This document shows positions 4,160 through 33,828 of a DNA stretch of 64,000 bases, piece by piece. Position 1 is the stretch's first letter. Every line of letters begins with the position of its first letter. The DNA is taken from contig NZ_CP083553.1 in the NCBI RefSeq assembly GCF_025144465.1, positions 1,486,001-1,550,000 of the forward strand. The letters are read 5' to 3'. A model generated the notes under the pieces. It was not told the DNA's origin, did not search any database, and was given only the letters and a program-made list of their open reading frames with translations. The DNA comes from Leisingera sp. S132. Lineage in GTDB: Bacteria; Pseudomonadota; Alphaproteobacteria; Rhodobacterales; Rhodobacteraceae. Made by a program: the position numbers and the translations under genes.

Positions 4160-5800
4160 ATGGCTGACGAAACCACCAATCAGGGTATCCCCGCCCCAGA
4201 GGGCGAGGCGGATATCATAGATACCGAATACGAGATCGGTCAGGACAATATCGAAACCCAGATCGGCCCGTTCGGGGTCGACATTCACAACCCGGTGTTC
4301 CTGGTGTCCGGGCTGGTCATCGTGGCCTTTGTGTTTTACGCGCTGGCCTTGCCGGAACAGGCGGGCGCCTTCTTCAACTGGCTGCGCCCCGCCGTCACCA
4401 GCAATTTCGACTGGTTCTTCTTCGGTGCCGCAGACCTGTTCGTTCTGTTCTGCCTGTTTCTGATCGTCTCCCCCTGGGGCAAGGTGCGCCTGGGCGGCAA
4501 TGAGGCAATGCCGGATTACAATTACCTGGGCTGGTTTGCGATGCTGTTTGCCGCGGGCATGGGCATTGGCCTGATGTTCTATGGCGTCAGCGAACCGATG
4601 AGCCATTTCTCCACCGCCTTTGGCGGCACGACTGTGCCTGAGGGCGGCGGCGCCCGGACCGACTGGGCACCGCTGGGCGCAGCAGCGGGGGATGAAGCCG
4701 AGGCGGTGCGCCTGGGCATGGCCGCGACGATCTTCCACTGGGGGCTTCATCCCTGGGCCATTTACGCCATTGTGGCGTTGGCCTTGGCGCTGTTCACCTA
4801 CAACAAGGGGCTGCCGCTCACCATCCGCTCTGCCTTTTATCCGATTTTCGGCGAGCGCGTCTGGGGCTGGACCGGCCATGTCATCGACATTCTGGCGGTC
4901 TTTGCCACGCTGTTCGGCCTCGCAACCTCGCTTGGCTTCGGCGCGACCCAGGCCAACGCAGGCCTGAATGAGCTGTTTGGCGTGCCGGCAGGCGCGACCA
5001 CCGAGGTGATCCTGATTTCCGCGATCACTGCTGTTGCGCTGATCTCGGTCCTGCGCGGCCTGGACGGCGGCGTGAAGGTGCTGTCGGAGATCAACATGGG
5101 GCTCGCCTTCCTGTTGCTGGTGTTCGTGCTGCTGGTCGGTCCGACCGCCGCTATCCTGACAGGGTTTGCCGCCAGCCTTATGGCTTATGTCGAGTATTTG
5201 CCGGCACTGTCGAACCCTGTCGGGCGCGAGGATGTGAACTTCAGCCAGGGCTGGACCGCCTTCTACTGGGCCTGGTGGATCAGCTGGTCGCCGTTTGTGG
5301 GCATGTTCATCGCCCGCGTCAGCCGCGGCCGCACCGTCCGGGAGTTCGTGATCTGCGTGCTGCTGATCCCCAGCCTCGTCTGCGTTCTGTGGATGAGCGT
5401 CTTTGGCGGCACAGCCATTCAACAGGTGCTGTCTGACGGTTTCACCGGGGCGCAGGACGCGGCGCTTGAACTCAAACTGTTCAAGATGCTGGGAGAGCTG
5501 CCGCTGGCCGGGATCACCTCCTTTGTCGGCATCGTGCTGGTGGTGGTGTTCTTCGTGACTTCGTCGGACTCCGGCTCGCTGGTGATCGATACCATCACAG
5601 CAGGCGGCAAGGTCGACGCGCCGGTGCCGCAGCGGGTGTTCTGGTGCATCTTCGAGGGCGCCGTTGCCATCGTTCTGCTGCTCGGCGGCGGCCTTGGCGC
5701 GTTGCAGGCGATGGTGATCTCGACTGGCCTGCCGTTCACCGTGGTGCTGCTGCTGATGTGCTGGGCGATCTTCCGCGGCCTGCAGACAGAGGCACGCTAG
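4160..5800 (+). CDS. BCCT-family betaine/choline/DMSP-type transporter
   Basis: A 546-residue inner-membrane sodium- or proton-coupled carrier for trimethylammonium or sulfonium osmolytes. The hydrophilic N-terminus (about 45 residues) is followed by about 12 predicted membrane spans. Family signatures are visible: GWFAMLFAAGMGIGLMFYG near 117-135 and the tryptophan-rich signature WAWWISWSPFVGMF near 371-384. The ATG at 4160 follows AAAGGAGG. Family members in DMSP gene clusters transport DMSP, and from memory some roseobacter BCCT genes linked to dmdA were named dmdT. The substrate here is inferred from position; glycine betaine is equally possible. Confidence 0.9.
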   Translation: MADETTNQGIPAPEGEADIIDTEYEIGQDNIETQIGPFGVDIHNPVFLVSGLVIVAFVFYALALPEQAGAFFNWLRPAVTSNFDWFFFGAADLFVLFCLFLIVSPWGKVRLGGNEAMPDYNYLGWFAMLFAAGMGIGLMFYGVSEPMSHFSTAFGGTTVPEGGGARTDWAPLGAAAGDEAEAVRLGMAATIFHWGLHPWAIYAIVALALALFTYNKGLPLTIRSAFYPIFGERVWGWTGHVIDILAVFATLFGLATSLGFGATQANAGLNELFGVPAGATTEVILISAITAVALISVLRGLDGGVKVLSEINMGLAFLLLVFVLLVGPTAAILTGFAASLMAYVEYLPALSNPVGREDVNFSQGWTAFYWAWWISWSPFVGMFIARVSRGRTVREFVICVLLIPSLVCVLWMSVFGGTAIQQVLSDGFTGAQDAALELKLFKMLGELPLAGITSFVGIVLVVVFFVTSSDSGSLVIDTITAGGKVDAPVPQRVFWCIFEGAVAIVLLLGGGLGALQAMVISTGLPFTVVLLLMCWAIFRGLQTEAR

Positions 5801-6499: not shown

Positions 6500-7723
6500 A
6501 TGAGCGTTTTGGATATTGATTTCGTCCGGGCACAGTTCCCCGCCTTTGCCGAACCCAGCCTTGAGGGGCAGGCGTTCTTTGAAAATGCCGGCGGGTCCTA
6601 CACCTGCCAGCAAGTGATCGGCCGGCTGACCCGGTTCTACACCCAGCGCAAGGTCCAGCCCTACGCGCCCTACGAGGCGTCCCGTCTCGGCGGCGAGGAA
6701 ATGGACGAGGCCCGCGCTCGCCTGGCTGCGCTGATGGGGGTTGCCACGGATGAGCTGAGCTTTGGCCCCTCGACCACCCAGAACACCTACGTGCTGGCGC
6801 AGGCCTTCCGCAAGCTGATGAAGCCGGGCGAGGCGATCATCGTCACCAATCAGGACCACGAGGCCAATACCGGCCCCTGGCGGCGTCTGGCAGAGGAGGG
6901 GATCGAGGTCCGCGAATGGCAGCTCGACCCGCAGACCGGCCATCTGGATACGGCACAGCTGGAAAACCTGCTGGATGAGAACGTCCGCCTGCTCTGTTTC
7001 CCGCATTGCTCCAACGTGGTGGGAGAGATCAACCCGGTGGCGGAGATCACCGCGCTGGCCCATGCCTCGGGTGCCTTTGTCTGCGTCGATGGCGTCTCTT
7101 ACGCACCGCACGGCCTGCCCAACGTCGATGAACTGGGCGCCGACATCTACCTGTTCTCCTCCTACAAGACCTACGGTCCGCATCAGGGCGTCATGGTGAT
7201 CCGCCGCGCGCTGGGCGCGCTGCTGCCCAACCAGGCGCATTACTTCAACGCAGGCGACCTCTACAAACGCTTCACTCCGGCAGGCCCTGACCACGCCCAG
7301 GTGGCGGCTTCGGCCGGCATGGCGGATTATTTCGAGTCTCTGGCGGCGCATCACGGCCACAGCGGCAGCGCCTCCGAAACCGGCGCCTTTGTCCACGACC
7401 TGATGCGCGCGCATGAAATCAAGCTGCTGCAACCGCTGCTGGACGCAGTGAAGGACCGCAACGATCTGCGCCTGCTGGGTCCGTCCACCGCCGGAAACCG
7501 TGCACCCACCGTGGCCTTGGCCCTCAGCCGCGCGGCTGAGCCGGTTGCGGCACAGCTTGCAGAACATGGCATCATGGCAGGCGGCGGCGATTTCTACGCC
7601 GTGCGCGCGCTGGAGGCGATGGGCATTGATCCAGCCGAGGGTGTGCTGCGTATCAGCTTCACCCACTACACGTCCGGGGCAGAAATCGCCAAGCTGATCG
7701 AGGCCTTGGACCGGGTGCTGTAA
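6500..7723 (+). CDS. Class V aminotransferase / cysteine-desulfurase-like PLP enzyme
   Basis: A 407-residue fold-type I PLP enzyme. The cofactor lysine lies in FSSYKTYGPHQG near 223-234. An SFGPSTTQNTY stretch near 86-96 contacts the PLP phosphate in this family, and HCSNVVGEINPV near 169-180 is also typical. Many bacterial relatives are annotated as NifS/SufS-like, but the flexible catalytic-cysteine loop of true desulfurases is not evident, so the reaction is uncertain. The ATG at 6500 follows GAGGAGA. It lies 23 bp before the photolyase gene and may be co-transcribed. The 261-bp spacer upstream shows no gene. Confidence 0.8.
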   Translation: MSVLDIDFVRAQFPAFAEPSLEGQAFFENAGGSYTCQQVIGRLTRFYTQRKVQPYAPYEASRLGGEEMDEARARLAALMGVATDELSFGPSTTQNTYVLAQAFRKLMKPGEAIIVTNQDHEANTGPWRRLAEEGIEVREWQLDPQTGHLDTAQLENLLDENVRLLCFPHCSNVVGEINPVAEITALAHASGAFVCVDGVSYAPHGLPNVDELGADIYLFSSYKTYGPHQGVMVIRRALGALLPNQAHYFNAGDLYKRFTPAGPDHAQVAASAGMADYFESLAAHHGHSGSASETGAFVHDLMRAHEIKLLQPLLDAVKDRNDLRLLGPSTAGNRAPTVALALSRAAEPVAAQLAEHGIMAGGGDFYAVRALEAMGIDPAEGVLRISFTHYTSGAEIAKLIEALDRVL

Positions 7724-7746: not shown

Positions 7747-9171
7747 ATGAACAGCCGTGCCCCGGTCATCTGGTGGATCAGGCGGGATCTCCGCCTGGCA
7801 GACAATCCGGCCCTTACGGCTGCCGTGAACAGCGGCGCCCCGGTGCTGCCCGTCTATATCCTCGACGAACAGGAGTTGGCGCTGGGCGCGGCTCCCAAGT
7901 TCCGGCTTGGCCTCGGGCTGGACTGCTTTGCCAGGGCGCTGGAAAAGGCCGGATCGCGCCTGATCCTGCGGCGGGGTTCAGCACTTGCGGTGCTGCGGGA
8001 GCTGGCCGAGGAAACCGGGGCAGGGGCGGTGCATTGGTCCCGCCTCTACGATCCGCAGGCCATAACCCGTGACACGGAGGTCAAGCAACAGCTGAAGGCT
8101 CAGGGGATTGCGGCCAAGTCCCACGGCGGGCGGCTGCTGTTTGAACCCTGGTCTGTCGAGACCAAGACCGGCGGCATGTACAAGGTCTTTACCCCGTTCT
8201 GGAAATCCGTGCGGGTGCGCGATGTATCCAGCCTGCTGCCTGCGCCGGGCAAACTGCCCGCGCCGGACAGATGGCCTGCCAGTGACAGCCTGGCTGCGTG
8301 GAACATGGCCGCCGCGATGCGCCGCGGCGCCCAAGTTGTGGCCCGCTATTGCCGCGTGGGGGAGGCTGCGGCGCAGGCGCGGCTGGATGAATTTTTGGAA
8401 GACAAGGTCGTCGCCTACAAGGACCGCCGCGACTTTCCAGGCGAGGACGCCACTTCCGGCCTGTCGGAAAACCTCGCCTGGGGCGAAATCAGCCCGCACC
8501 GCCTGTGGCACCGGGGCCGCGCGGCAATGGAGCAGTCCAGCCAGGGAGCGGAGACCTTCCTGAAAGAGGTGGTCTGGCGCGAGTTTGCCTATCACCTGAT
8601 GTATCACTCGCCGCATATCCTGACCGCCAGCTGGCGGCAGGAATGGCAGGATTTCCCATGGTCGCAGGAGGTGACGCCCGAAGTGCAGGCCTGGCAGCGC
8701 GGCCAGACCGGATACGGCTTTGTCGATGCCGCCATGCGAGAGCTTTTTGTGACCGGAAAGATGCACAACCGCGCCCGGATGATCGTGGCAAGTTTCCTCA
8801 CCAAGCATCTGATGGCCCACTGGAAAATTGGAATGGACTGGTTCGCGGACACGCTGGTGGACTGGGATCCGGCCTCCAACGCCATGGGCTGGCAATGGGT
8901 GGCGGGCTCCGGCCCCGATGCGGCGCCCTTCTTCCGCGTGTTCAACCCGTCGGGCCAGCTGGACAAGTTCGACCCCGATGGCGCCTACACCCGCCGCTGG
9001 ATAGCTGAAGGCCAGGGAAAACCGCCGCAGACTGCGCTGGATTTCTACGGCGCAGCCCCGCTGTCCTGGGGCCTTTCCCCGGACATGGCGCGGGCGGAGC
9101 CGGTCATCAGCCTGCAGGCAGGCCGGGACCGCGCGCTCACGGCCTATCACAACAGCCGTGAAAACGGCTAA
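7747..9171 (+). CDS. phrB: Deoxyribodipyrimidine photolyase
   Basis: A 474-residue DNA photolyase that uses FADH- and blue light to split cyclobutane pyrimidine dimers. The N-terminal antenna domain starts with WWIRRDLRLADNPAL (9-23). The C-terminal FAD domain has VWREFAYHLM near 276-285, GKMHNRARMIVASFL near 337-351 and the hallmark NAMGWQWVAGSGPDAAPFFR near 378-397. A class I CPD photolyase is most likely. Ribosome site AAAGGA. The gene is followed by cfa, the same pairing I recall in Rhodobacter sphaeroides, where photolyase and a cfa gene belong to the RpoE/ChrR singlet-oxygen response. Confidence 0.93.
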   Translation: MNSRAPVIWWIRRDLRLADNPALTAAVNSGAPVLPVYILDEQELALGAAPKFRLGLGLDCFARALEKAGSRLILRRGSALAVLRELAEETGAGAVHWSRLYDPQAITRDTEVKQQLKAQGIAAKSHGGRLLFEPWSVETKTGGMYKVFTPFWKSVRVRDVSSLLPAPGKLPAPDRWPASDSLAAWNMAAAMRRGAQVVARYCRVGEAAAQARLDEFLEDKVVAYKDRRDFPGEDATSGLSENLAWGEISPHRLWHRGRAAMEQSSQGAETFLKEVVWREFAYHLMYHSPHILTASWRQEWQDFPWSQEVTPEVQAWQRGQTGYGFVDAAMRELFVTGKMHNRARMIVASFLTKHLMAHWKIGMDWFADTLVDWDPASNAMGWQWVAGSGPDAAPFFRVFNPSGQLDKFDPDGAYTRRWIAEGQGKPPQTALDFYGAAPLSWGLSPDMARAEPVISLQAGRDRALTAYHNSRENG

Positions 9172-9252: not shown

Positions 9253-10458
9253 ATGAAGTTCACGTCCGTTGAGGGCCAGAAAGACCTGCCGCGCTACTTT
9301 CCGGCAGTGTTTGCCAAGGTAAAGGCCATGGAGGTCGGGCAGCTGGATATCCAGCTGCCGGACGGGCGCATTTTCACTGCCAGGGGCCGCAATCCGGGAC
9401 CCGCGGCGGATCTGATCATCCACCACCCCGATTGCTTTGCCCGCCTGATCCGCGAGGGCGACCTGGGCTTCTCAGACGCCTATCTCGAAGGCTGGTGGAG
9501 CACCTCCGACCTGCAATCCTTTATGGATCTTGTGCATATGGGGGCCGATACCGTCTATGACGGATTTCCGGGCCAGGGGCTGGCACGCGCCTATGAACGC
9601 TTCCGCTTCTGGCTGCACCGCAACCACCGCCGCCAGGCAAGGAAAAACATCGCCCATCACTACGATCTCGGCAATGCGTTCTACCAGCTGTGGCTCGACG
9701 ACACGATGACCTATTCCAGCGCCCTGTTCCGCAGCGGCCAGGACAGCCTTGAGACGGCGCAGACCGCCAAATACGCCTCCCTTGTGGATCAGATGGGGGT
9801 CAAGCCCGGCGACCATGTGCTGGAGATCGGCTGCGGCTGGGGCGGTTTTGCCGAATATGCCGCAAGCCAGCGCGGCTTGCGTGTCACCGGGCTGACAATC
9901 AGTAAGGAACAGTTAAGGTTTGCCCGGCAACGGGTTGAAAAAGCGGGGCTTTAAGATGCAGTAGAGCTGCGTTTGCAAGACTACCGCGACTGCCGGGGCC
10001 AATTCGACGGAATCGCCTCGATCGAGATGTTCGAGGCGGTGGGAGAAAAATACTGGCCCGCCTATTTCGGCGCGGTCCGGGACCGTCTAAAGCCCGGCGG
10101 CAAGGCGACACTTCAGATCATCACCGTCGCGGACCGGCGCTGGGAGGTGTACCGCAAGGGCGTCGATTTTATCCAGAAGCACATCTTCCCGGGCGGCATG
10201 CTGCCGTCCCCGTCAGTGCTGCGCGCCCAGGTGGAAAAGGCCGGGCTCGGTGTGGTCCGGTCGATCGAATTCGGCAGCAGCTACGACCAGACGCTCCGGC
10301 GCTGGCATGAGACCTTTAACACCCGGTGGGACCGGATCGCAGCCCTGGGCTTTGATGAACGGTTCCACAAGATGTGGAACTTTTACCTCACTTCCTGCGC
10401 CGCTGCCTTTAAGACTGGAAATTGCGACGTGACGCAGATTACAGTTGCGCATCGTTAA
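9253..10458 (+). pseudogene. cfa: Cyclopropane-fatty-acyl-phospholipid synthase, interrupted by an in-frame TAA
   Basis: Encodes a SAM-dependent methyltransferase of the Cfa family, which adds a methylene group to unsaturated acyl chains of membrane lipids. The full frame would be about 401 codons. Codons 1-233 (9253-9951) end in VEKAGL, followed by TAA at 9952-9954. The same frame then continues DAVELRLQDYRDC... to 10458 without another stop. The SAM motif LEIGCGWGGFAEYA lies just before the stop; EMFEAVGEKYWPAYF and the C-terminal domain lie after it. Because frame is kept, one base change explains the break. The truncated product would lack half the catalytic fold. It could be a true nonsense mutation, a sequencing error, or a readthrough site. 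Confidence 0.85.
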
Positions 10459-10486: not shown

Positions 10487-10927
10487 ATGCCCACCGGAGC
10501 CCGCCTAGCCGCCGCAATTTCCCTGGCAACACTGGCGTTTATCGTTTCGTTTCTGGTCATGCCGCAGCTGCCCGAAGGCACCAACTTCGGATATTTTGTG
10601 CATATCAACGTGGTGCTGGGTCTGCTTTGCGGCTGGATCTTCATGGGCAAACGCGCAGGCCGCGGTGTTGTGCCGGCGATCAATAATGGACTGACGGGCA
10701 TGGCCGTGCTGGTGTTGTGGGCGCTGTTCGTCCAGGGCGCCTGGGAAATGTTCCGGCTGGCCATGCGGCACCGCTACGGCGGCCCGTTTGAGGCGCTGTC
10801 GCAGATTTTTGTCATTGGCATGGAATACTTCTTTCTAATTGCCGTTCCGTCGGTGCTGATACCTTTGGTGGTCGGCGGGGCTCTTGCCGGCCTTGTGACT
10901 GAGAACGCTTCGCAGCGCTGGCGCTGA
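10487..10927 (+). CDS. trgA: TrgA-like tellurite-resistance membrane protein
   Basis: A 146-residue integral membrane protein with about four hydrophobic segments (near 7-27, 38-53, 70-90 and 112-137). Size and context match TrgA of the R. sphaeroides trgA-trgB-cysK tellurite-resistance locus. Its biochemical role is not established; resistance is linked to the gene pair. The gene starts 28 bp after cfa with a weak ribosome site and is followed by trgB after 29 bp. Confidence 0.82.
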   Translation: MPTGARLAAAISLATLAFIVSFLVMPQLPEGTNFGYFVHINVVLGLLCGWIFMGKRAGRGVVPAINNGLTGMAVLVLWALFVQGAWEMFRLAMRHRYGGPFEALSQIFVIGMEYFFLIAVPSVLIPLVVGGALAGLVTENASQRWR

Positions 10928-10956
10928 AAACATTCAAAAACAACAGGTTGTATCCC

Positions 10957-12081
10957 GTGGCTGATCTCTTTTTCTTTGGCACGCTGCGCCATTGGCCTTT
11001 GCTTGAACTGGTTCTGGGCCGCAGCCGGGACGCGCTGAAGGCGCAGCCTGCCAGACTGCCCGGTCACGGTGTCTATCAGGTGGCGGGCCAGCCTTTTCCC
11101 GCAATCGAGGAACGTCCGGGCGCCGTGGCGGAGGGTGTTCTGGTGCGGGACCTGTCGCAGGCCGATCTGGAGGCCCTGAATTTTTATGAAGGCGGCTTCG
11201 GTTACGCGCTAAAGCCTGTTGCCGTTGAGCTGGAGGACGGAAGCACGGCCGCGGCTGACGTCTATTTTCCGGAACCGGGGCTTTGGCAAACTGCGGAGCC
11301 TTGGGACCTTGCGGCCTGGGTGGCAGACTGGGGCGCGCTCTCCTTGCGCGCGGCTGAGGAGGTGATGGCCTATCATGGCCGGATGAGCGCTGACGAGGCG
11401 GCCCGCAGTTTCCCCTCTATCCGCCGCCGCGCCGCTGCCTGGCTGGCTGGCCAGGCCCGGCCCGGCGACGGGGTGCATGACCTTAGCCGTGATGTGATCG
11501 TTCATTCCCACAAGCGTGCCCATCTGAACTTCTTTGCGATGGAGGAGATGGACCTTCAGTTCCGCCGCTTCGATGGCAGCATGAGCCCGGTTCTGAACCG
11601 GTCGGCGTCGATGGCGGGCCATGCGGCCGTGGTACTGCCATACGATCCGGTGCGCGACCAGGTTCTGCTGGTGGAACAATTCCGCGCACCGCCCTTCATG
11701 ATGGGCGACGCCTGCCCCTGGATGTGGGAGCCGGTGGCCGGCGTGATCGACCCGGGCGAGAGCGCCGAGGAGACCGCCCGGCGTGAAGCGGTGGAGGAAG
11801 CAGGCGTCACCATCCAGCATCTGGAAGCCGTTGCGCGCGGCTACCCCTCCAGCGGGGCGCTGGCGGAATATATCCATATTTTCATCGGCATAGCAGATCT
11901 TTCTGATGTGTCGGGCGGCGGTGGCGTTGCTGGCGAAGGGGAAGATATCCGCAGCAAGACCCTCAGCTACGAGGAGATGATGGCGGGGATCGACACGCAG
12001 GCCTACCAGGACATGCCGCTGATCACGGCAGCGCTGTGGCTGTCACGGCACCGTGATCGTCTGCGCGCAGAGCATTCCTGA
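10957..12081 (+). CDS. trgB: TrgB-like fusion of a gamma-glutamylcyclotransferase-like domain and a NUDIX hydrolase
   Basis: About 374 residues from the GTG at 10957, chosen because AACAGG lies 9 nt upstream; a TTG at 10948 is the alternative. The N-terminal part begins with FFFGTLRHWPLLE, the dinucleotide-loop type start of GGCT-like folds, and contains LNFYEGGFGY. The C-terminal part (about 190-340) is a NUDIX domain with a complete box G-x5-E-x7-REAVEEAGV, as in ADP-ribose pyrophosphatases. The family is associated with tellurite resistance next to trgA and cysK. The two domains suggest handling of a glutathione-derived metabolite and a nucleoside diphosphate, but substrates are unknown. 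Confidence 0.85.
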   Translation: MADLFFFGTLRHWPLLELVLGRSRDALKAQPARLPGHGVYQVAGQPFPAIEERPGAVAEGVLVRDLSQADLEALNFYEGGFGYALKPVAVELEDGSTAAADVYFPEPGLWQTAEPWDLAAWVADWGALSLRAAEEVMAYHGRMSADEAARSFPSIRRRAAAWLAGQARPGDGVHDLSRDVIVHSHKRAHLNFFAMEEMDLQFRRFDGSMSPVLNRSASMAGHAAVVLPYDPVRDQVLLVEQFRAPPFMMGDACPWMWEPVAGVIDPGESAEETARREAVEEAGVTIQHLEAVARGYPSSGALAEYIHIFIGIADLSDVSGGGGVAGEGEDIRSKTLSYEEMMAGIDTQAYQDMPLITAALWLSRHRDRLRAEHS

Positions 12082-12149
12082 CCCGCTTCCCGCCTTGTGA
12101 TCGGCAATCCGCTTGGATACACCATGGGGGAACGATCGAAAGGGATACC

Positions 12150-13184
12150 ATGCGCATTGCACGCGATCTGGCTGATGCCGTCGGCCATACACCTCTTATC
12201 CGCCTGAACCGCGTCAGCGAAGAGACCGGCTGCGAGATCCTGGGCAAGGCGGAATTCATGAACCCGGGCCAGTCGGTCAAGGACCGCGCCGCGCTCTACA
12301 TCATCCGCGATGCCATCGCCCGCGGTGATCTGAAACCGGGCGGCACCATCGTGGAGGGCACCGCCGGCAACACCGGCATCGGCCTGGCACTGGTCGGCGC
12401 CTCGATGGGCTTCAAGACGGTGATCGTGATCCCGGAAACCCAGTCCGAGGAAAAGAAGGACATGCTGCGGCTTGCTGGCGCGCAGCTGGTTCAGGTGCCC
12501 GCGGCGCCCTATAAGAACCCCAACAACTACGTGCGCTATTCCCAGCGCCTGGCTGAGAAACTGGCCAAGACCGAACCCAATGGCGCCATCTGGGCCAACC
12601 AGTTCGACAACGTCGCCAACCGTCAGGCCCATGTGGAAACCACCGGCCCGGAAATCTGGGAACAGACCGGCGGCAAGGTGGATGGATTCGTCAGCGCCGT
12701 CGGCTCTGGCGGCACGATTGCCGGCGTCGCCGAGGCGCTGCAGCCCAAAGGCGTGAAGATCGGTCTTGCAGACCCGATGGGCGCGGCGCTCTATTCCTAT
12801 TACACCACCGGTGAACTGGCCTCTGAGGGCAGTTCGATCACCGAGGGGATCGGCCAGGGCCGCATCACCAGGAACCTCGAAGGCTTCACCCCGGACTACA
12901 GCTATCAGATTTCCGACGCCGAAGCCGTGCCCTACGTCTTTGACCTGCTGCATGACGAGGGCCTTGTGCTGGGCGGCTCCTCCGCGATCAACATCGCCGG
13001 TGCCGTGCGCCTGGCCAAGGAGATGGGGCCGGGCAAGACCATTGTGACCGTGCTGTGCGATTACGGCACCCGGTATCAGTCCAAGCTGTTCAATCCCGAT
13101 TTCCTGCGTGAAAAGAACCTGCCGGTGCCGGAGTGGATGACCCACACGCCCGCATCGATCCCCGGTGTTTTTGAGGACGTATGA
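12150..13184 (+). CDS. cysK: Cysteine synthase A (O-acetylserine sulfhydrylase)
   Basis: A 344-residue PLP enzyme making L-cysteine from O-acetyl-L-serine and sulfide. The PLP lysine is in NPGQSVKDRA near 37-46. The substrate loop EGTAGNTGIG near 69-78 and the phosphate-binding SAVGSGGTIAG near 182-192 are present. In R. sphaeroides a cysK adjoins trgAB and contributes to tellurite resistance. The stop overlaps the next start by 4 bp (ATGA), so it is coupled to the mechanosensitive channel gene. It is slightly longer than typical CysK (about 310), as in other Rhodobacteraceae copies. Confidence 0.93.
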   Translation: MRIARDLADAVGHTPLIRLNRVSEETGCEILGKAEFMNPGQSVKDRAALYIIRDAIARGDLKPGGTIVEGTAGNTGIGLALVGASMGFKTVIVIPETQSEEKKDMLRLAGAQLVQVPAAPYKNPNNYVRYSQRLAEKLAKTEPNGAIWANQFDNVANRQAHVETTGPEIWEQTGGKVDGFVSAVGSGGTIAGVAEALQPKGVKIGLADPMGAALYSYYTTGELASEGSSITEGIGQGRITRNLEGFTPDYSYQISDAEAVPYVFDLLHDEGLVLGGSSAINIAGAVRLAKEMGPGKTIVTVLCDYGTRYQSKLFNPDFLREKNLPVPEWMTHTPASIPGVFEDV

Positions 13185-33076: not shown

Positions 33077-33595
33077 TCAGAACGGGATTTCGTCGTCGTC
33101 GATGTTGTGGGACGCGCCGCCGCCAAAGCTGCCGCCGCCACCGCCGCCCTGCGGTCCGCTGTCATAACCGCCGCCGTAGCCGCCGCCCTGGCTGCCGCCG
33201 CCGTAACCGCCGCCGCCCTGGCCGCCGCCGCCACCGCCTTCGCCGCGGCCATCCAGCATGGTCAGGGTGGAGCCGAAGCCCTGCAGCACGATTTCGGTCG
33301 AGTAACGGTCCTGGCCGCTCTGGTCCTGCCACTTGCGGGTCTGCAGCTGGCCTTCGATGTAGACCTTGGAGCCCTTGCGCAGATACTGCTCGCAGACGCG
33401 GACCAGGCCTTCGCTGAAGACAGCGACGGAGTGCCATTCAGTCTTCTCGCGGCGCTCGCCGGTGTTGCGGTCCTTCCAGGTTTCCGAGGTGGCAATGCGC
33501 AGGTTGCAGACCTTGCCGCCGTTCTGGAAGCTGCGCACCTCCGGGTCGCGGCCCAGGTTGCCGATGAGCATGACTTTGTTGAGTGAGCCGGCCAT
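33077..33595 (-). CDS. ssb: Single-stranded DNA-binding protein
   Basis: A 172-residue SSB. The OB-fold (about 1-112) starts with [18 protein letters not shown] and includes ATSETWKDR and [12 protein letters not shown] long glycine-rich linker (about 118-162) follows. The acidic tip DDDEIPF, which recruits replication and repair partners, ends the protein. The ATG at 33595 follows GGACGG. It has its own terminator. Confidence 0.96.
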
Positions 33596-33828
33596 AGGGT
33601 TCCGTCCTTTATTTCCTGAATATCCTGTCATTGACCGGACCGGTGCGAATCCGTCCGGGCTGTTTTGCCAGCACACTATAGACCCCGGCAGGGTGAGGAA
33701 AGCAGCTCTCTGGGGATGGTTTTGCGCTTGTTTCGACGCCGCACACAGGTTCTTGCGCCTGTGTTGCTTTAAATTTGCTCCGCATTGGTTATATTTGCGC
33801 AAACAGGGACAGTGTCGGGACAGCGGAT

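Follow-up and report, generated by a model that had tools for sequence, protein, structure and literature searches.

In R. sphaeroides, the product of RSP2144 was identified as the fatty acid methylase UfaM by deletion and expression, as described in PMC7380195. According to the same report, UfaM methylates cis-vaccenate yielding 11Me-12t-18:1, while UfaD and UfaO lead on to the furan fatty acid. The UfaM reaction was also reported for the enzymes of Halomonas sp. YLGW01 and R. palustris RPA2569 (PMC12089945, PMC7380195). Among relatives of the strain considered here, 11-methyl C18:1w7c has been reported for L. methylohalidivorans, P. caeruleus and P. daeponensis, in the last of these at 16.6%.

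Here we analysed a stretch of 64,000 nucleotides from the marine roseobacter Leisingera sp. S132 (NZ_CP083553.1, positions 1,486,001 to 1,550,000; from here: the window), in which a photolyase-linked methylase gene is interrupted by a stop codon. We consider it quite likely that the window carries a recent nonsense allele of ufaM, which would end the supply of 11-methyl-18:1 from this gene, its inactivity being judged from the residues lost. The features of the locus are:

6500 to 7723, plus strand: class-V aminotransferase or cysteine-desulfurase-like gene upstream of the photolyase gene (Pfam Aminotran_5, E 2.6e-51; start codon inferred)
7627 to 7652, plus strand: tentative candidate for an RpoE(ECF11)-like promoter, TGATCC-N16-CGTA, lying within the upstream coding sequence, 120 bases ahead of the photolyase start
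7747 to 9171, plus strand: intact DNA photolyase gene, phr (Pfam FAD_binding_7 and DNA_photolyase)
9253 to 9954, plus strand: 5′ part of the broken ufaM; its 233 codons include the SAM-binding motif and end in TAA
9952 to 9954, plus strand: premature in-frame TAA, codon 234 of 401
9955 to 10458, plus strand: remainder of the ufaM frame up to its natural stop (167 codons), with the residues aligned to E239, H266 and Y317 of E. coli Cfa
10487 to 10927, plus strand: trgA-family gene, a conserved downstream neighbour (NCBIfam NF033773 TrgA, 191.5 bits)

From the ATG at 9253 the frame runs for 233 codons to the TAA at 9952-9954; past it, the same frame stays open for 167 codons to the natural stop at 10456-10458. 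Both halves match the Pfam CMAS profile in register, the N part at profile positions 3-109 and the C part at 113-273, and a genome-wide CMAS profile search marked "1 TAA" within its match at 9253-10458. With the TAA at codon 234 of 401, the frame does not encode a complete catalytic UfaM protein. Behind the TAA there are an in-frame TTG at 9973, which opens an ORF of 161 residues, and an ATG at 10027. The initial annotation had described a cfa gene interrupted by a single in-frame TAA but otherwise intact, and the frame is indeed open on both sides, with no indel relative to 20 relatives of the genus. Its placement of the TAA between the SAM site and the remaining catalytic residues agrees with the profile matches and the alignment. 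An uncommon TTA that it had pointed out near the stop is present at codon 221, but it is no sign of decay since 12 of the 20 relatives have the same TTA.

For comparison, 41 genomes were searched (the strain's own, 20 of the same genus and 20 more distant ones), in 39 of which the N part was matched. In addition, we used the best 80 of 557 confirmed further loci, which come from named genomes and belong nearly all to Rhodobacterales. A tree of 42 rows was computed from 7 of these 80 loci, 4 of the 20 genus relatives, paralogues and cluster-linked genes.

Judged from its sequence, the window gene is the orthologue of RSP2144, hence UfaM and not a cyclopropane synthase, because tree, synteny and active-site residues agree. 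In the tree it falls within a photolyase-linked clade including Luteovulum azotoformans, which served as the stand-in for the RSP2144 sequence and which we take to be close to R. sphaeroides. E. coli Cfa lies beyond a 100/99 split, and the gene therefore does not group with known Cfa. Tree and synteny together place it as an orthologue of the photolyase-linked rhodobacteral gene of the RSP2144 lineage. Among 14 aligned rows, the 10 on the UfaM side share Ser156, Glu258, Ala262, Gln288 and Thr291, which mark the clade against Cfa; only Ser156 precedes the stop, with Glu258, Ala262, Gln288 and Thr291 behind it. The same 10 rows have Ser, Ala, Gln and Thr at Cys139, His240, His266 and Gly269 of E. 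coli Cfa, four residues presumed to have roles in its active site. The 4 Cfa-side rows keep Cys139 and His266, for which the window gene has Ser and Gln. The reading as a cyclopropane synthase is thus rejected by tree and residues, and the name cfa given in the initial annotation does not hold. Given the UfaM-type residues and clade, the search for cyclopropane fatty acids that had been proposed as a lipid check would aim at the wrong compound, the expected ones being 11-methyl-18:1 and furan fatty acids. By homology, the gene would encode the 11-methylase acting on cis-vaccenate, the first step towards furan fatty acids.

The photolyase gene lies directly upstream of the methylase gene in all 20 genus relatives and in 67 of the further loci, and a trgA match was found in 20/20 and 69, respectively (best 80 of 557 loci, some of them cut by contig ends); the Aminotran_5-type gene was matched in 57 of the same best 80. 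The order phr-ufaM also occurs in L. azotoformans (L101). In R. sphaeroides, phrA (RSP_2143) and RSP_2144 have consecutive tags and both appear in the RpoE regulon table of PMC7074977, in line with the singlet-oxygen link of the adjacent photolyase to which the initial annotation had pointed. On plasmid pRA02 of Roseicitreum antarcticum (L163), which was typed as conjugative, a methylase is 67% identical over the N part, and no photolyase is listed within 4 kb of it. Downstream in the window, at 10487-13184, the trgA-family gene is followed by a GGACT-NUDIX fusion (Pfam/NCBIfam). A cysteine-synthase-like gene presumably comes next, and we take the locus to resemble the trgAB-cysK tellurite locus of R. 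sphaeroides.

The interruption is absent from the orthologues, as expected for a pseudogene. Each of the 20 orthologues from the genus is exactly 401 codons long and free of gaps and stops, and all of them have one identical amino acid in the TAA column; the frame is open and stop-free from the N to the C part in 80/80 further loci (best 80 of 557 confirmed). Among the 20 relatives, 159 columns before the stop and 117 behind it are invariant, and the window gene departs from these only at the TAA column; its private residues number 2 on the N side and 1 on the C side. Against 8 of the 20 relatives, pairwise dN/dS was 0.026-0.059 behind the stop and 0.065-0.102 before it, values that mostly mirror the long shared past and not the time elapsed after the stop. 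An extra stop, an indel or a change in an invariant column as a mark of further decay was not found against the 20 same-genus relatives, and decay before or behind the stop was rejected on the basis of invariant columns and dN/dS. The lack of decay behind the stop means that it is either recent or an assembly error. Four of 13 private substitutions lie within 26 bases at the stop, the other affected columns being variable in the relatives; we considered whether this cluster might be the trace of a local event. Compared with loci L007-L012, the similarity of 9253-10458 looks mosaic, the first 600 bases being nearest to L007/L008/L010 and the last 200 to L009/L012, which may reflect recombination within the genus.

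The genome of the strain contains one DUF1365 gene, which we take to encode UfaO. This assignment fits the order chrR, sigma, FAD oxidoreductase, DUF1365, MFS in Qingshengfaniella as well as the description of RSP_1090/91 beside rpoE-chrR (PMC7074977). The DUF1365 gene is part of a cluster with an FAD oxidoreductase gene (UfaD candidate), a second CMAS gene, an MFS transporter gene, a DUF3833 gene, a short-chain dehydrogenase gene, a photolyase-related gene, a sigma-70-family gene and a ChrR anti-sigma gene. The initial annotation had missed this second CMAS gene:

L126:9509-10666 (G000:C1, about 506.5-507.7 kb): second UfaM-type methylase, intact, in the sigma-chrR/ufaO cluster; function predicted

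It occurs in 19/21 genus genomes, the same 19 that have the DUF1365 gene, on the same contig and about 2 kb apart; the two genomes without both still keep the photolyase-linked gene. The second methylase shares about 42% identity with the broken gene and has the UfaM-type Ser/Glu/Ala/Gln residues in the 14-row alignment. On the UfaM side of the tree, where deeper branching is weak, it forms a group (97/90) with the cluster-borne methylase of Azoarcus. Identity to the broken gene is 47-59% for 6/7 cluster-linked methylases of other genomes and 40% for that of Salinivibrio. For FufM, an identity of 26% to UfaM is reported (PMC7380195); because of the about 42% found here, assigning the second copy as FufM is not favoured.

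A promoter-like motif, candidate RpoE-type, is common to the photolyase-ufaM locus and the furan cluster. TGATCC-N16-CGTA lies 34-70 bases before the photolyase gene in 30/66 loci, with 0.64 expected, a count that is partly self-chosen since the motif was fixed after seeing the matches in relatives. In the genome of the strain, it also precedes the sigma gene, ufaO and the UfaD candidate (L126, matches at 5271 and 8162 on the plus strand and at 8132 on the minus strand). The match at 7627 is farther upstream of the photolyase gene than in these 30 loci; it is exact in 17/21 genus genomes, where it is inseparable from coding constraint. The promoter pattern used initially had no match before the photolyase gene within the window.

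The undecayed C part would be expected equally from an assembly error, from read-through or from a very young lesion. A sequencing or assembly error, with an intact gene in the organism, appears to us an unlikely source of the TAA. All sequence behind the stop is conserved, as such an error would leave it, the stop is known from one genome of the species alone, and the 233-residue product has no protein record among the 120 matches listed, whereas there is one for the second methylase, encoded in the same genome. The lesion is, however, a substitution and not a frameshift, the typical kind of long-read error, and the genome is assembled in 7 contigs with a completeness of 100. Moreover, when 48 ORFs judged coding in the syntenic relative G012 were compared, the only one flagged as interrupted in the window was 9253-10458; the other 47 were unflagged, and an error-rich assembly is unsupported. 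In the reverse comparison 4 of 49 window ORFs were flagged, two for small offsets at one end and two (33077-33802 on the minus and 63548-64003 on the plus strand) for stops in G012, which we took for doubtful ORFs. Very improbable is an active enzyme formed from both pieces, made by read-through of the TAA or by re-initiation at TTG 9973 or ATG 10027. The preserved C part and the in-frame TTG with its 161-residue ORF would suit it, but the split falls behind the SAM motif and, judged from the motif order, within the presumed Rossmann fold; TAA, usually the least leaky stop, is also poorly suited to read-through.

Compatible with a recent nonsense allele is a further reading in which the lesion is real but nearly silent, the methylase at L126:9509-10666 carrying out the same reaction. 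We regard such cover as a minority possibility to be taken seriously. The second gene is intact, sits with the sigma, chrR, ufaO and UfaD-candidate genes, and resembles UfaM in residues and tree position, and the ufaM of Halomonas, consecutive with ufaD and ufaO, is reported to have made 11-methyl-octadecenoate in E. coli (PMC12089945). Against it stand the identity of only about 42%, with 6/7 other cluster-linked methylases at 47-59%, and the report that deletion of a 38%-identical UfaM relative in R. palustris caused no significant change in the profile (PMC7380195). The photolyase-linked gene is also kept in 20/20 relatives though 18/20 have the second copy as well, which argues against free exchange of the two methylases. 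Most likely, the single recent-looking nonsense allele in this misnamed gene is real, a one-genome pseudogene of a known gene, and the stop is probably a recent, ordinary loss. Among the matches listed, no broken ufaM of Leisingera was found in literature titles or abstract openings.

With the nonsense allele as the preferred reading, translation would end after 233 residues. The product would keep the N-terminal domain and the SAM motif and would probably be inactive because the catalytic Glu, Gln and Tyr positions are missing. Intact UfaM would convert cis-vaccenoyl chains of phospholipids into 11-methyl-octadecenoyl chains in a SAM-dependent reaction; little or no 11-methyl-18:1 would thus be expected from the broken gene, and furan fatty acids would be made only if the second, cluster-borne methylase can perform the first step. 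If the lesion is real, little or none of the 11-methyl C18:1w7c reported for described Leisingera and Phaeobacter species should be present in the strain, which would provide a natural test of whether a furan-cluster methylase can replace UfaM. By analogy, the response to singlet oxygen may be weaker if the second methylase does not take over this step, since full RpoE activation in R. sphaeroides is said to need RSP_1090/91 and CfaS (PMC7074977). A division of labour, in which the photolyase-linked UfaM serves bulk membrane 11-methyl-18:1 and the cluster-borne one the furan branch and RpoE-ChrR signalling, is speculative and rather doubtful; if true, the bulk-lipid role alone would be knocked out naturally in this strain, separating the structural from the signalling part. 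For annotation, the photolyase-linked "cfa" of roseobacters should be corrected to ufaM by homology, and cyclopropane assays would therefore miss its product.

Compared with the described systems, the broken gene lies outside a cluster such as those of Halomonas sp. YLGW01 and R. palustris RPA2569, in which ufaM, ufaO and ufaD occur together. It is the second methylase of the genome whose setting is like that of their cluster-borne ufaM, a likeness drawn from descriptions and not from sequences. With E. coli Cfa, the window gene shares the CMAS family, the SAM motif and the Glu239 and Tyr317 positions, but it belongs to a separate clade and has Ser for Cys139, Ala for His240, Gln for His266 and Thr for Gly269. 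From UfaM of RSP2144 it differs in its interruption at codon 234 and in the second UfaM-type methylase beside ufaO, where the searched L. azotoformans record has none. It is otherwise like RSP2144 in adjoining a photolyase gene, in belonging to the UfaM-side clade and in the presence of a UfaO homologue encoded elsewhere in the genome.
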